64,000 nt of DNA from Actinomycetota bacterium (GTDB lineage: Bacteria; Actinomycetota; Thermoleophilia; Gaiellales; Gaiellaceae). A model generated the notes under the pieces. The model was not told the origin of the DNA and made no database searches. It saw only the letters and a program-made list of their open reading frames with translations. The stretch lies in NCBI GenBank assembly GCA_003132665.1, contig PKYN01000017.1, positions 25,996 to 89,995 of the forward strand, in the 5' to 3' direction. Position numbers and translations under genes: made by a program. Shown here piece by piece: positions 35,130 through 42,911 of the stretch. Positions within the stretch are counted from its first letter, which is position 1. Each line of letters opens with the position of its first letter.

Positions 35130-35300
35130 TTACCTACGAGGCGCCGCTGCGCCCAGCGCCGCGAGTTGCGCCTGGAACAGGTACTTGTCGATCTTGCCGT
35201 GATAGATCGGCACGCCTTCCTTCATGCAGACGCGGATCACTTCGTCACGGTCGATCCCCATTTCCTTGGCGATCTCCTCGGGCGTCAGGTGGTTTGCCAT
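35130..35300 (-). CDS. 56-residue helix-turn-helix-like protein
   Basis: It starts at the ATG behind AAAGGAGCGAG. The sequence LTPEEIAKEMGIDRDEVIRVCMKEG looks like a helix-turn-helix of the kind in small MerR/excisionase-type or IF2 N-terminal domains. It is followed by VPIYHGKIDKYLFQAQL and an Ala-rich end. A longer frame from a GTG 15 codons upstream would run through a terminator hairpin and is unlikely. The function is not known. Its mRNA leader holds a promoter and a strong intrinsic terminator, so expression is probably controlled by read-through. Confidence 0.75.
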   Translation of the reverse strand: MANHLTPEEIAKEMGIDRDEVIRVCMKEGVPIYHGKIDKYLFQAQLAALGAAAPRR

Positions 35301-35313
35301 CTCGCTCCTTTCG

Positions 35314-35351
35314 AAAAAGAAAACCCGCTTGTGCAAACGCACCAAGCGGGT
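35314..35351 (-). terminator. Intrinsic terminator / attenuator in the leader of the HTH gene
   Basis: On the minus strand ACCCGCTTG pairs with CAAGCGGGT. The pairing continues through TGC/GCA after a one-base bulge to a GTTT loop, and is followed by TTTCTTTTT. The U tract ends 13 nt before the HTH ATG, immediately ahead of its ribosome site. This is by far the most classical rho-independent signal in the window. Confidence 0.8.
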
Positions 35352-35417
35352 CTATCCATTCCTCCGCAAATTATGTGTGGCGGCCATCAGGCGCACCGCC
35401 GAACCGAGACACTCATT
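35314..35417 (-). ncRNA. Candidate short leader RNA or sRNA of about 105 nt
   Basis: Transcription from the promoter at 35424-35452 would stop at the U tract near 35314. The RNA holds a first hairpin GGCGG/CCGCC (35379-35400) and the terminator hairpin. Three tiny frames chain through it (MSVSVRRCA, MAATHNLRRNG, MDRPAWCVCTSG...), which may be chance. It is either an attenuated leader of the HTH gene or a small RNA. Confidence 0.45.
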
Positions 35418-35423
35418 AACTGC

Positions 35424-35452
35424 AGCATAGAGCGTTCGGATGACGGAAGCAA
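35424..35452 (-). promoter_or_regulatory. Promoter ahead of the terminator-bearing leader
   Basis: On the minus strand TTGCTT (plus 35447-35452), 17 nt, TATGCT (plus 35424-35429). The predicted start is near 35417. Confidence 0.55.
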
Positions 35453-35461
35453 CGGACCGGC

Positions 35462-36205
35462 CTAAACGGGATTCGGAAGCTCGACGAACTCCCAATCGAT
35501 GCCGAAACGCTCGCCGATTTTGGCGGCCAAGGCCTGGATTCCGAGCCTTTCGGTGGCGTAGTGGCCGGCGGCCAGGAAGTGGATGCCAAGCTCGCGCGCG
35601 GCATGCAGGCTCGGCTCCTTGGGCTCGCCGGTGAGAAAGAGGTCGTAGCCCTCCCGCGCCGCGGCGAGCAGGCTTGGGCCGCCACCGCCGGTGACGATCG
35701 CCACCGTCTGTACGACCTCGGGACCGTGCAGGAAGGCGAGCGGCTTGCGACCGAGCTTTTCCTCCACACGCGCGGCGAATTCCTCGCCCGCGAGCGGCTC
35801 GAGCAGCCGTCCGCCCGTGCCGAACTCGTCGAAGACCCGCTCGGGCTCGATGCCGAGCTCGCGGGCCAGCAGCACGGCGTTTCCGATCTCGGGGTGGGCG
35901 TCAAGGGCCAGGTGATAGGCGACGAGCGAGAGATCGGCGTCGAACAGCGCCTTCAGCCGCCCCTTCTGGCGGCGGTCGATCACGAGCTGCTCGCTCGCCC
36001 AGAAGAGTCCGTGGTGGACGAGCACCATCTGGGCTCCGCGCCCGCGCGCAGCCTCGAAGAGCTCGCGCGAGGCCGAGACGCCGCAGACGATCTTCTCGAC
36101 CTCGCTCGCTCCTTCGACCTGAAGCCCAACCGGTCCGTAGTCGCGGAAGCGGTCTACTTGGAGCAATTCGCTCGCAAAGGCGACTATCGCGTCACGCTTG
36201 GCCAC
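35462..36205 (-). CDS. NIF3-like dinuclear metal centre protein
   Basis: It has 247 residues and a GTG start. Metal-binding signatures of the NIF3/YbgI/YqfO family are present: LVHHGLFW near residues 62-69, YHLALDAHPEIGNAVLLAREL near 96-116, and AGHYATERLGIQALA near 214-228. A TTGTCC-18-TAGAAT promoter ends 6 nt before the start. Known homologues form toroidal hexamers; a role as a GTP cyclohydrolase I type 2 has been proposed for some, but a genuine FolE is already encoded here. Confidence 0.9.
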   Translation of the reverse strand: MAKRDAIVAFASELLQVDRFRDYGPVGLQVEGASEVEKIVCGVSASRELFEAARGRGAQMVLVHHGLFWASEQLVIDRRQKGRLKALFDADLSLVAYHLALDAHPEIGNAVLLARELGIEPERVFDEFGTGGRLLEPLAGEEFAARVEEKLGRKPLAFLHGPEVVQTVAIVTGGGGPSLLAAAREGYDLFLTGEPKEPSLHAARELGIHFLAAGHYATERLGIQALAAKIGERFGIDWEFVELPNPV

Positions 36206-37004: not shown

Positions 37005-37121
37005 TTCTCCTCCTCTCGTTGTCAACACAGGCAACGTAGCGGTCAAACTCAAACGAGAGACGCACGCTTCCGCGCAGCTTCGTGTCGGATCCGCGGCGGA
37101 GTAGCTAACGTATGGGGCGCT

Positions 37122-37195
37122 CGGGGTGTGGCGCAGCCTGGTAGCGCGCTCCGTTCGGGTCGGAGAGGTCCCCAGTTCAAATCTGGGCACCCCGA
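37122..37195 (+). tRNA. tRNA-Pro (anticodon CGG)
   Basis: The cloverleaf was read by eye: acceptor CGGGGTG/CACCCCG, D arm GCGCAGCCTGGTAGCGC, anticodon stem CTCCG/CGGAG with loop TTCGGGT, so the anticodon is CGG for the CCG codon. The T arm is CCCAG-TTCAAAT-CTGGG. The CCA end is not encoded. All stems pair perfectly. Confidence 0.95.
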
Positions 37196-37199
37196 TAAG

Positions 37200-40112: not shown

Positions 40113-42911
40113 CTATGGCGCTGTTTTAGCGTCGCCGCGTAAGCGGCCGGCAAGCTCAGAACGCGACTCGATTTCGAGCTTGCGGAAGATCTTGGACAGA
40201 TTCGCTTCGACCGTGCGCACGCTCACGAACAGGGCGGCGGCGACGTCCTTATTCGATTGTCCGCTCGCGACCAACTCGGCGACGCGACGCTCGGTCGGCG
40301 TGAGCTCGTTGCCGCCGGCGCGCTGGCCCGCGCCCGTTCGAGCGAGCTCGCCCTGTGTTCTCTTCGCCCACCCGGCGGCACCCATCTTCTCGAAGCGCTC
40401 GAGCGCTCGAGTGAGCATGCGTCGTGCCTCGCCTCGGCGTTTCGCGCGGCGCAGCGTCGTTCCGAAGTACAGCTCGGTGCGCGCCAGCTCGAACAGGTGC
40501 GATGTACCGGCATGGGCCGCGAGCGCTTGCTTGAAGTCTTCGCGCGCGGATTCCAGATCGCCGCGTAGTGCCGCGAGCAGAGCGCGTGAGCGGGCTGCCA
40601 GGGCCAGAGCCAGTGGCTGACGAGTCTGCTCGGAGATCTTCGTCAGCTCGTCGACGTAGCGTTCGGCCTGCTCGCTCTCGCCCAGCGCGAGCAGTAGCTC
40701 CGCGGCGAGCGAGCGGGGCAGGATGATGCGCGGATTGTCGACGCTGGGGCGCCCGTCCGAGAGCGCCTCATCCTCGTGAATCTCGAGCAGAGACGAGATC
40801 CACCGCCAGGCCTCGGAGAAGTCGCCCTTCGCCTGGTCGAACAGGGCCAGGTAAGCGATCGCCATGTTGGCGGCCTGGATGTGGGCGCTTCGCAACCCTT
40901 GCTCGTAGGCTTCGATCAGGCCCGAGCGCGCCTCTTCCTCGCCGCGCATCGATCTCAGGCCGAGGTGGATGACCTCGAGATTCTGGACCAGGTAGGAGAT
41001 GTCGACGTCCCGTGCCTCCGGCAGGGATTGCTGGCAGTAGCTCTCGGCGAGATCCCAGTTTCCGACCCGAAGCTCGACGTTGATCAGCATCGGGATGAGA
41101 TGCAGCCACTCGGTCAGCTGGCCTTCGGCCAGCGCCCGCTCGGTCTCGCTCTGCACGATCGGCCGGGCGGCCTCGATCTCGTCCAGCCAGAAGAGCTGCC
41201 ATCCCTGCCACAGGCGCGGGCTGCGCCTCCCCGGCAACCCGCCGATCTCGCGCTCCAGCTCGAGCGCTCGCTGCATCGAGGCCTCGTCGATCGAGCCGCC
41301 CAGAAGAACGACGGCATTCGCCACACCCTGCAGGGCCTCGATCAGGAGCTCCTTGTCACCGGCGAGCTCTGCGTGTTTGAGAGCGATTCGCGCGGCCTCC
41401 AGCTGCTCGGCGTTTCGGTTCTTCCGTCCGAACGAGGCTCCGAGCACGATCGCGGCTTTTGCGGCGCGGGCGTTGTCGCCGGACGCCTCCTCGAGCGCCT
41501 GTCTGCAAAGGCGTACCGCCTCGTCGAGGTCGGGAACCGTCTCGGAGAGAAGGACGAGCGCGTCGGCGCGCTGAGGGCAGGGGCCGAGATCGTCGATCAG
41601 CGCCTCGAGCAGGGTTCGGCAGCGCTCGGCTTCGCCGGTGACGAAGAGCTGCTCGGCGGTCGCGAGGCGCCGTCGTGCGAGCGCTTCGCGGTTTGCAAGC
41701 GGCGTGAGCTTGGCTGCGAGCTCGCTCAGCTCGGCGGCGGAATCGGGGGCCGCTCGGGCGGCCGCGGCGGTCGCGGCTTGCTCCAGTTCCTCCGCCACCT
41801 TCTCGTCTGGCCCGGCGCTGGCCAGAGCGAGGTGGTGTGCGCGCTCGCCGGCGTTTTTCGTCAGAGCGGCGGCACGAGCGTGCGCGGCGCGCCGTTCCTC
41901 GGCCGAGGCTCCGGCGTAGACGACAGAGGCGGGAAGGGGGTGCGTGAAGCGGATGATCCCGCGCTCGATCTCGACGATTCCCGCATCTACGGCTTCGACC
42001 AGGCTCGCGCCGTCGGCTTCACCGAGCACGCTGACGGTGGGTTGCGAGAGCGTGGCCGAGATCAGGAGCGCCTTTCGGGTTGAGGGCTGCAGCGCCTCGA
42101 GTCGCGCTTCGATCAGCCCGCCCAGCGACTCGGGCACGCGCAGCGGCCTCCCGGGCTCGATCTCCGTTCGCTTCAGCTGAGCCCGCGCCAGCTCGAGCGC
42201 GTAGAACGGATTGCCGCCCGACGCGTCGCAAATCGAGACAATTACCTGACGCGGCAGGCGAGCGGCGAGGCGGGTGCGGATCAGGTTCTGGAGCGCACCG
42301 AGGCTGAGCGGACCGATCGTGCGGCGCTCGACCGTCCCCGGCGACCGCGACGCGAGCTCGACGTTGAGCGGCAGGGCCGGCCCGCCTTCCCGTTCGATCC
42401 GTCGAGCCAGTAGCGCTCGGCAGCGGTCGAGCTCGATTCGGCGAAAAACGAAGGCCAGTACGCGAGCCGACGAGGCGTCGAGCCACTGAATGTCGTCGAT
42501 TGCGATCAAGAGCGGCGTCTCGTTCGCAGTGGCCCGAATCAGGGTCAGCGTTGCGAGCGAGACCGCCCGCTGATCGGGCACTCCGCCGTCGGCCTCGCGC
42601 AGGAGCAGGCCGATCTCGAGCGCGCGCCGCTGGGGAGGAGGAAGCTGACGCAGCATCTCTTCGCCCAGCTCGCCGAGCAGGTCGCCGAGCGCCGAGAAGG
42701 CAAGCGGCGTCTCGGCAGGCGAGGGTCTGCAGGACAGAACGCGAAAACCGTGCCCGCGCGCGACCTCCAGCCCCCGGAGCCAGAGGGTCGTCTTTCCGAT
42801 TCCGGCGATGCCCTCGAGCATGAGGATGCCGGGCCCTTTGGGGGCCTGAGTGAATAAACGCTCAACCGCAGCCAGCTCCTCGGTGCGACCGAGCGGTTCC
42901 GCGCTCGACAT
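40113..42911 (-). CDS. LuxR-family large ATP-binding transcription regulator (LAL type), copy A
   Basis: It has 932 residues. The N-terminal AAA/STAND ATPase has Walker A GIAGIGKTTLW near 35-45 and Walker B LLIAIDDIQWLD near 135-146. A long TPR-like helical region fills about 330-860. The C-terminal LuxR HTH is at about 865-930 (LTPTERRVAELVASGQSNKDVAAALFVSVRTVEANLSKIFRKL). TAGGCT sits 6 nt before the ATG with TTGCGG 16 nt further up. It is a clear paralogue of copy B, which lies 84 nt upstream on the same strand. The inducer is unknown. Confidence 0.93.
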   Translation of the reverse strand: MSSAEPLGRTEELAAVERLFTQAPKGPGILMLEGIAGIGKTTLWLRGLEVARGHGFRVLSCRPSPAETPLAFSALGDLLGELGEEMLRQLPPPQRRALEIGLLLREADGGVPDQRAVSLATLTLIRATANETPLLIAIDDIQWLDASSARVLAFVFRRIELDRCRALLARRIEREGGPALPLNVELASRSPGTVERRTIGPLSLGALQNLIRTRLAARLPRQVIVSICDASGGNPFYALELARAQLKRTEIEPGRPLRVPESLGGLIEARLEALQPSTRKALLISATLSQPTVSVLGEADGASLVEAVDAGIVEIERGIIRFTHPLPASVVYAGASAEERRAAHARAAALTKNAGERAHHLALASAGPDEKVAEELEQAATAAAARAAPDSAAELSELAAKLTPLANREALARRRLATAEQLFVTGEAERCRTLLEALIDDLGPCPQRADALVLLSETVPDLDEAVRLCRQALEEASGDNARAAKAAIVLGASFGRKNRNAEQLEAARIALKHAELAGDKELLIEALQGVANAVVLLGGSIDEASMQRALELEREIGGLPGRRSPRLWQGWQLFWLDEIEAARPIVQSETERALAEGQLTEWLHLIPMLINVELRVGNWDLAESYCQQSLPEARDVDISYLVQNLEVIHLGLRSMRGEEEARSGLIEAYEQGLRSAHIQAANMAIAYLALFDQAKGDFSEAWRWISSLLEIHEDEALSDGRPSVDNPRIILPRSLAAELLLALGESEQAERYVDELTKISEQTRQPLALALAARSRALLAALRGDLESAREDFKQALAAHAGTSHLFELARTELYFGTTLRRAKRRGEARRMLTRALERFEKMGAAGWAKRTQGELARTGAGQRAGGNELTPTERRVAELVASGQSNKDVAAALFVSVRTVEANLSKIFRKLEIESRSELAGRLRGDAKTAP

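Follow-up and report, generated by a model that had tools for sequence, protein, structure and literature searches.

The trp leader has an early pause hairpin that extends over part of the leader peptide, and leaderless poly-cysteine uORFs of mycobacteria reportedly act as an attenuator. In the ilvB1 attenuator of M. tuberculosis, LVVI codons are regulatory and the antiterminator and terminator exclude each other (PMC13236596), and in Streptomyces coelicolor the are5sc and tiaA leaders place very short uORFs (MLV; MVGDDDISG) before a terminator (PMC12421871). For whiB7/wblC, PMC11550727 describes a uORF whose translation promotes the terminator and whose disruption leads to read-through (Lee 2022, Burian 2018).

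The leader analyzed here lies on the minus strand of a 64,000-nt stretch of DNA (the window, meaning the whole stretch that was analyzed) and precedes a gene for a 56-aa protein with a predicted winged-helix fold. Common to this locus and the poly-cysteine uORFs is a leaderless, or here probably leaderless, short ORF before an actinobacterial gene, but those uORFs encode Cys runs, whereas the uORF here lacks any codon run and is followed by a strong intrinsic terminator. Leaders of the ilvB1 and trp type also have a uORF, hairpins and a Rho-independent terminator, yet neither their regulatory codons nor their antiterminator was found here. The are5sc and tiaA leaders share the very short uORF preceding a terminator and differ in that their antiterminator is demonstrated as a fold, their uORFs have ribosome binding sites and their targets are of the ABCF resistance type (PMC12421871). 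With whiB7/wblC the locus has in common an actinobacterial regulator gene, a leader uORF, a terminator before the gene and, on the reading proposed below, an input from general translation, whereas the antiterminator alternative described there has no counterpart detectable here by a test uncalibrated on a known attenuator (PMC11550727). Our uORF, in contrast to that of whiB7/wblC, spans 8-10 codons, is probably leaderless and ends with a UGA in a hairpin loop, and its target is an unrelated 56-aa winged helix; the likeness that we would claim to whiB7/wblC, the closest precedent for the input, is one of analogy, in the input only. A literature search returned nothing on leaders of such type in Thermoleophilia.

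The leader and its conservation with the 56-aa gene

Beyond the end of the NIF3 gene, the minus strand carries in succession a promoter, a mini-ORF, hairpin 1, a linker, an intrinsic terminator, a Shine-Dalgarno sequence and the 56-aa gene (Table 1). A first-pass annotation had named the promoter, the two hairpins, the terminator and the spacing of its U-tract, and all of these are present in the sequence at the coordinates it gave. The terminator stem is composed of 9-10 bp, a bulged G and 3 bp, and the U-tract ends at 35314, which is 13 nt before the ATG at 35300. A consensus terminator scan overlooked this terminator (35352-35314), apparently because of the bulged G in the stem, while a hairpin scan of the window assigned the stem -20.3 kcal/mol. 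Its description as the only textbook terminator in the window comes close to the mark, one further hairpin below -15 kcal/mol being located on the plus strand at 41815-41854, opposite a long ORF. The whole leader folds at -48.4 kcal/mol, compared with -37.6 kcal/mol in dinucleotide shuffles (z = -3.0).

Table 1. Coordinates of the leader elements and adjoining genes within the window
Feature	Position	Strand	Details and basis
DUF34/NIF3 gene	35462-36205	-	adjoins leader upstream; stop codon 35464-35462
Promoter TTGCTT-17-TATGCT	35424..35452	-	TTGCTT 35452-35447, TATGCT 35429-35424; sequence
Mini-ORF ATG AGT GTC TCG GTT CGG CGG TGC GCC TGA (MSVSVRRCA*)	35387..35416	-	ATG 7 nt past -10 box
Hairpin 1	35379..35400	-	arms GGCGGT 35400-35395 and GCCGCC 35384-35379; RNAalifold
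Linker, hairpin 1 to terminator	35353..35378	-	mildly purine-rich
Intrinsic terminator	35314..35352	-	stem 35352-35322, loop GTTT, T-rich tract to 35314
Shine-Dalgarno AAAGGAG of 56-aa gene	35305..35311	-	immediately past U-tract; sequence
56-aa protein gene, predicted winged helix-turn-helix	35130..35300	-	ATG at 35300; relatives and AlphaFold2

The comparison set comprised 101 homologous loci from 37 genera of the order of Gaiellaceae, class Thermoleophilia. A terminator is predicted in 95/100 homologous leaders with a median of -21 kcal/mol, and its free energy lies below -14 kcal/mol in 92/100 of them versus 5/180 mononucleotide-shuffled sequences; in most loci the distance from start codon to stem end is about 85-100 nt, and the terminator ends at about +90-95 in most of the 95. 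RNAalifold applied to 26 whole leaders recovered hairpin 1 and the terminator and nothing else, both showing compensatory changes. In the stem of hairpin 1, 93% of cells are paired across 50 sequences, compared with 37-53% for slid versions of the stem. Changes on both sides of that stem affect 31 cells versus 6.7 in shuffles of the same 50 sequences, and the covariation score of 0.370 (versus 0.137) was reached by 0/500 shuffles. The UGA at 35389-35387 is unpaired in the loop of hairpin 1 in nearly all loci, and its three letters are the only invariant ones of that loop. From this stop to the terminator the gap measures about 30-35 nt in most loci (median 32 nt), and pairing of the linker with the anti-Shine-Dalgarno sequence gave a z of -0.71 ± 0.22 by genus.

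A covariance model built from the 26 leaders and run on 129 genomes of the order yielded 92 matches in 91/129 genomes, one each except for one genome (G074) with two on two contigs. The matches are positioned directly upstream of the 56-aa gene; three lack the full gene, in one case at an N gap (G002), in another at a contig end right past the gene start (G103) and in the third near a contig end (G106). Because there is essentially one match per genome, upstream of that gene, we regard the leader as cis-acting and tied to the 56-aa gene. That it is a real conserved element is near certain, and its hairpins, on whose persistence in relatives with the helix-turn-helix gene the first-pass annotation had staked its reading, have been retained along with the gene throughout the order. 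A search of the leader with the covariance models of Rfam 15 gave 0 matches at the gathering score (MicC, at E 1.2, is at chance level), so that the leader corresponds to no riboswitch or RNA family described there.

Homologs of the 56-aa protein were found in 51/61 relatives, in 279/399 genomes of the class and in 111/129 genomes of the order, eleven of the latter being weak hits that fall within a reading frame the size of IF2. Residues N3, H4, L5, T6, P7, E9, C25, P31, I32, G35, D38, L41 and F42 are invariant in 31 sequences. AlphaFold2 predicts a winged helix-turn-helix of the order beta-alpha-alpha-beta-beta-alpha (pLDDT 82), for which Foldseek placed RacA and BldC at the top (prob. 0.94-0.98) and Xis and IF2-N below, none with E < 0.001 and with E-values above 0.1; the Pfam matches to IF2_N (1.3e-4) and HTH_17 (5.7e-4) are both weak, and a sequence search against solved structures gave no significant match. 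The product would thus share its predicted fold with the small MerR-type DNA-binding proteins BldC, RacA and Xis, from which it differs in being net acidic and in the absence of a significant sequence match, with the IF2 N-terminal domain scoring alike. We designate it a predicted winged helix of the MerR/BldC/Xis type and a putative DNA binder. Its median net charge of -3 is unusual for a DNA-binding protein, and His4 and Cys25 are among its invariant residues.

Start, frame and stop of the mini-ORF

Over 100 loci the promoter follows the consensus TTGC-n-TCCGTC ... TATnCT, with an extended -35 block in which CCGTC occupies 35446-35442. The exact promoter pattern occurs in 7/41 relatives, once each except for one genome with two, and in the genome under study it stands at the 56-aa gene. 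The -35 region (35442-35452) is conserved past the hexamer, and the 56-aa gene is preceded by a similar block (TTGAGCCCGTCC..GGTATAA) in other orders of the class. The conserved TTGC-n-TCCGTC block is a candidate operator or special promoter. The start codon of the mini-ORF lies 6-10 nt past the -10 box in 100 loci, the transcript start being placed from the promoter position; since the ATG at 35416 is only 7 nt past the -10 box, transcription probably starts at or a few nucleotides from this ATG, and translation of the mini-ORF is probably leaderless or nearly so.

The mini-ORF spans 8-10 codons in 98/101 loci and 36/37 genera, five loci overlooked by the automatic search having been placed by eye, and the automatic set contains 88 ATG and 8 GTG starts and one likely CTG. 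Distances from the -10 box to the TGA of 30, 33, 34, 35, 36, 37, 38, 39 and 52 nt cover all three phases, and the frame is nonetheless kept: in 89/89 loci with an ATG 5-11 nt past the -10 box, this ATG and the hairpin TGA share one frame. In-frame start triplets lie 24, 27 and 30 nt from the stop; a second, out-of-frame ATG follows 4 nt later in 12 of the 89 ATG loci, and loci without an ATG past the -10 box mostly use a GTG start. This frame test is the strongest evidence for translation of the mini-ORF, which is probably translated. One locus (L048) carries a 20-codon insertion inside the mini-ORF and retains the frame to the same UGA.

The stop is UGA in 100/101 loci, whereas the downstream 56-aa genes of the same loci, which supplied the reference stop usage, end with TAG 64, TGA 19 and TAA 16 times (n = 99), a difference with p of about 5e-36 in a Fisher test that treats loci without regard to kinship. 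These genomes seem to prefer TAG stops (64/99 for the small gene and, by a rough count, 54% of long ORFs), which is unusual for GC-rich bacteria. The encoded residues, in contrast to start, frame and stop, are not conserved. Nonsynonymous changes dominate, changes at the three codon positions outside the stem stand at 328:432:451, and there is little purifying selection across the codon positions of the mini-ORF. Across the 101 loci there is no amino-acid codon run and regulatory codons of the trp/ilv type are absent; consecutive Cys codons are likewise absent, with 10 Cys in all mini-ORFs together. Arg accounts for 167 of about 790 residues and ends of the form ..RA[RLE]* are frequent, the Arg codons sitting in the stem arm, where they are swapped for Gln and Pro as the stem changes.

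Search for a structural switch and alternative explanations

The alternative antiterminator pairing that had been suggested as a check was sought and nothing rose above background. The terminator arms pair with the rest of the leader no better than shuffles do, with z of -0.16 ± 0.16 and -0.26 ± 0.19 over 32 genera, and when the ribosome footprint was masked the predicted terminator remained at 0.86-0.93; both tests are uncalibrated on a known attenuator. An antiterminator formed from a hairpin 1 arm and the 5' arm of the terminator (GGCGGGC with GCCCGCC), which is possible in many loci, equals shuffles, and where the hairpin 1 arm has changed (GGCAGG, GCCGG) it tracks its own partner and not the terminator. 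We also rejected UGA read-through as a means of bringing the ribosome through the terminator, as the frame past the UGA is open in 72/93 loci and, by genus, at 0.75 versus 0.76 for the +1 frame, with shuffles at 0.64. Sequestering of the Shine-Dalgarno sequence was likewise rejected, its accessibility being 0.49-0.51 and the same with a ribosome on the mini-ORF. Because arm pairing equals shuffles and masking leaves the terminator intact, any link between translation and termination is without a visible structural basis.

The strong default terminator, the lack of an alternative structure and the covariation of hairpin 1 independent of the terminator would all suit a leader that fixes a dose or makes a small RNA: the terminator would cut most transcripts at ~100 nt and keep the regulator at a low constant level, hairpin 1 would stabilize the RNA and the mini-ORF would do no more than guard its 5' end, sensing nothing. 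This account leaves the preserved frame and the UGA bias unexplained, however, and an RNA that acts in trans has no need of a link to the same gene across genomes, so that we rate the account as somewhat unlikely but deserving of serious consideration. Quite unlikely, in our estimate, is a feedback or ligand mechanism in which the 56-aa protein, another protein or a ligand acts at hairpin 1 (through its UGA loop) or at the TCCGTC block to set termination or initiation. The UGA as the sole invariant loop letters, the conserved TTGC-n-TCCGTC block and the predicted winged-helix fold agree with such a mechanism, but the start codon and frame would then be superfluous, the leader matches no Rfam family and the protein, at its median of -3, is acidic for a nucleic-acid binder.

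Two further explanations carry far less weight. Classical amino-acid attenuation or an arrest peptide, in which the ribosome would stall at given codons of the mini-ORF, might draw on the Arg-rich peptides and their frequent ..RA[RLE]* ends, but the Arg codons follow the stem, no codon run exists and few residues are constrained, and we consider it very unlikely. Upstream of the leader, the 101 loci have NIF3 in 35 cases, tRNA-Pro in 14 (mostly on the opposite strand) and neither detected in 52; since the upstream genes vary in this way among genera, the terminator belongs to the 56-aa gene's own promoter. That it instead closes an upstream NIF3 transcription unit and sits in the leader by chance is hardly credible, for although NIF3 precedes the leader on the same strand in this locus and 34 others, the promoter stands between NIF3 and the terminator, and the terminator stays where tRNA-Pro or no NIF3 adjoins, which largely refutes this explanation. 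NIF3 is also found upstream in other orders of the class, and a functional link is possible. A tRNA-Pro(CGG) gene lies at 37121-37196 on the plus strand of the window, ~1.7 kb from the leader, which such a gene adjoins in other genera, mostly on the opposite strand.

Proposed mechanism and distribution

We slightly favor a reading in which the leader is a transcription attenuator of the winged-helix gene with translation of the mini-ORF as its input, a proposal drawn from comparative sequence evidence in which the use of the start, the function of the terminator and the effect of translation on read-through, with its direction, are all inferred. RNA polymerase would start at or beside the AUG that opens the leaderless mini-ORF, which is about nine codons long; a ribosome would load on the 5' end, translate these codons, melt hairpin 1 and halt at the UGA of the loop. 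The polymerase would reach the terminator about 60 nt later, the state of the ribosome, or that of hairpin 1 should it act as a pause signal, would alter its fate there, and the share that reads through would yield the 56-aa protein. The first-pass annotation had offered either attenuation or a small RNA with read-through, and attenuation of the 56-aa gene is the best reading; its sensor peptides, several frames and antiterminator have found no support, as only the first of three tiny leader frames (35416-35387) is conserved and the residues of that frame are not.

With frame, start and UGA conserved and the amino acids variable, what the leader would sense is most likely the act of translating the mini-ORF (its initiation, the supply of ribosomes or termination at the UGA), and not a given amino acid or an arrest peptide. 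The ribosome footprint, estimated to extend ~12-15 nt downstream, falls short of the ~32-nt gap to the terminator, and the link would therefore be kinetic (pausing, coupling) or borne by a factor. A more specific and tentative version, which we judge rather unlikely, is a peptide-independent sensor in which the leaderless ORF and its UGA loop would report leaderless initiation or RF2-dependent termination and set read-through without an antiterminator fold.

Forty loci from other orders of the class were compared. In one family group (f7) the promoter, the +1 ATG and the terminator are kept and the uORF is longer, often running through the terminator; six loci of a related group (L127, L132, L136, L144, L146 and L159) have uORFs of 25-50 codons, in several of them straight through the terminator. 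In another (f5) the mini-ORF is mostly 10-12 codons long and the hairpin lacks a U-tract, and five loci (L130, L131, L148, L137 and L165, of another family group) have a 10-12-codon mini-ORF in the same place, in some with a strong hairpin without a U-tract. The remaining loci have short leaders with neither mini-ORF nor terminator. Since other orders show different leaders, the geometry of nine codons and a UGA loop is a feature of the order of Gaiellaceae, and the principle of the leader may be older than the order.

The locus represents an undescribed, order-wide, single-copy RNA leader that bears unusually clean marks of translation, in its preserved frame and stop codon, without peptide conservation or a visible antiterminator. 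If translation governs the terminator, attenuation would here dispense with the competing hairpins of the textbook scheme, and a role of RF2 or of slow termination becomes directly testable through the UGA bias. The leader is also a first point of entry to a small regulator that is conserved in Thermoleophilia.
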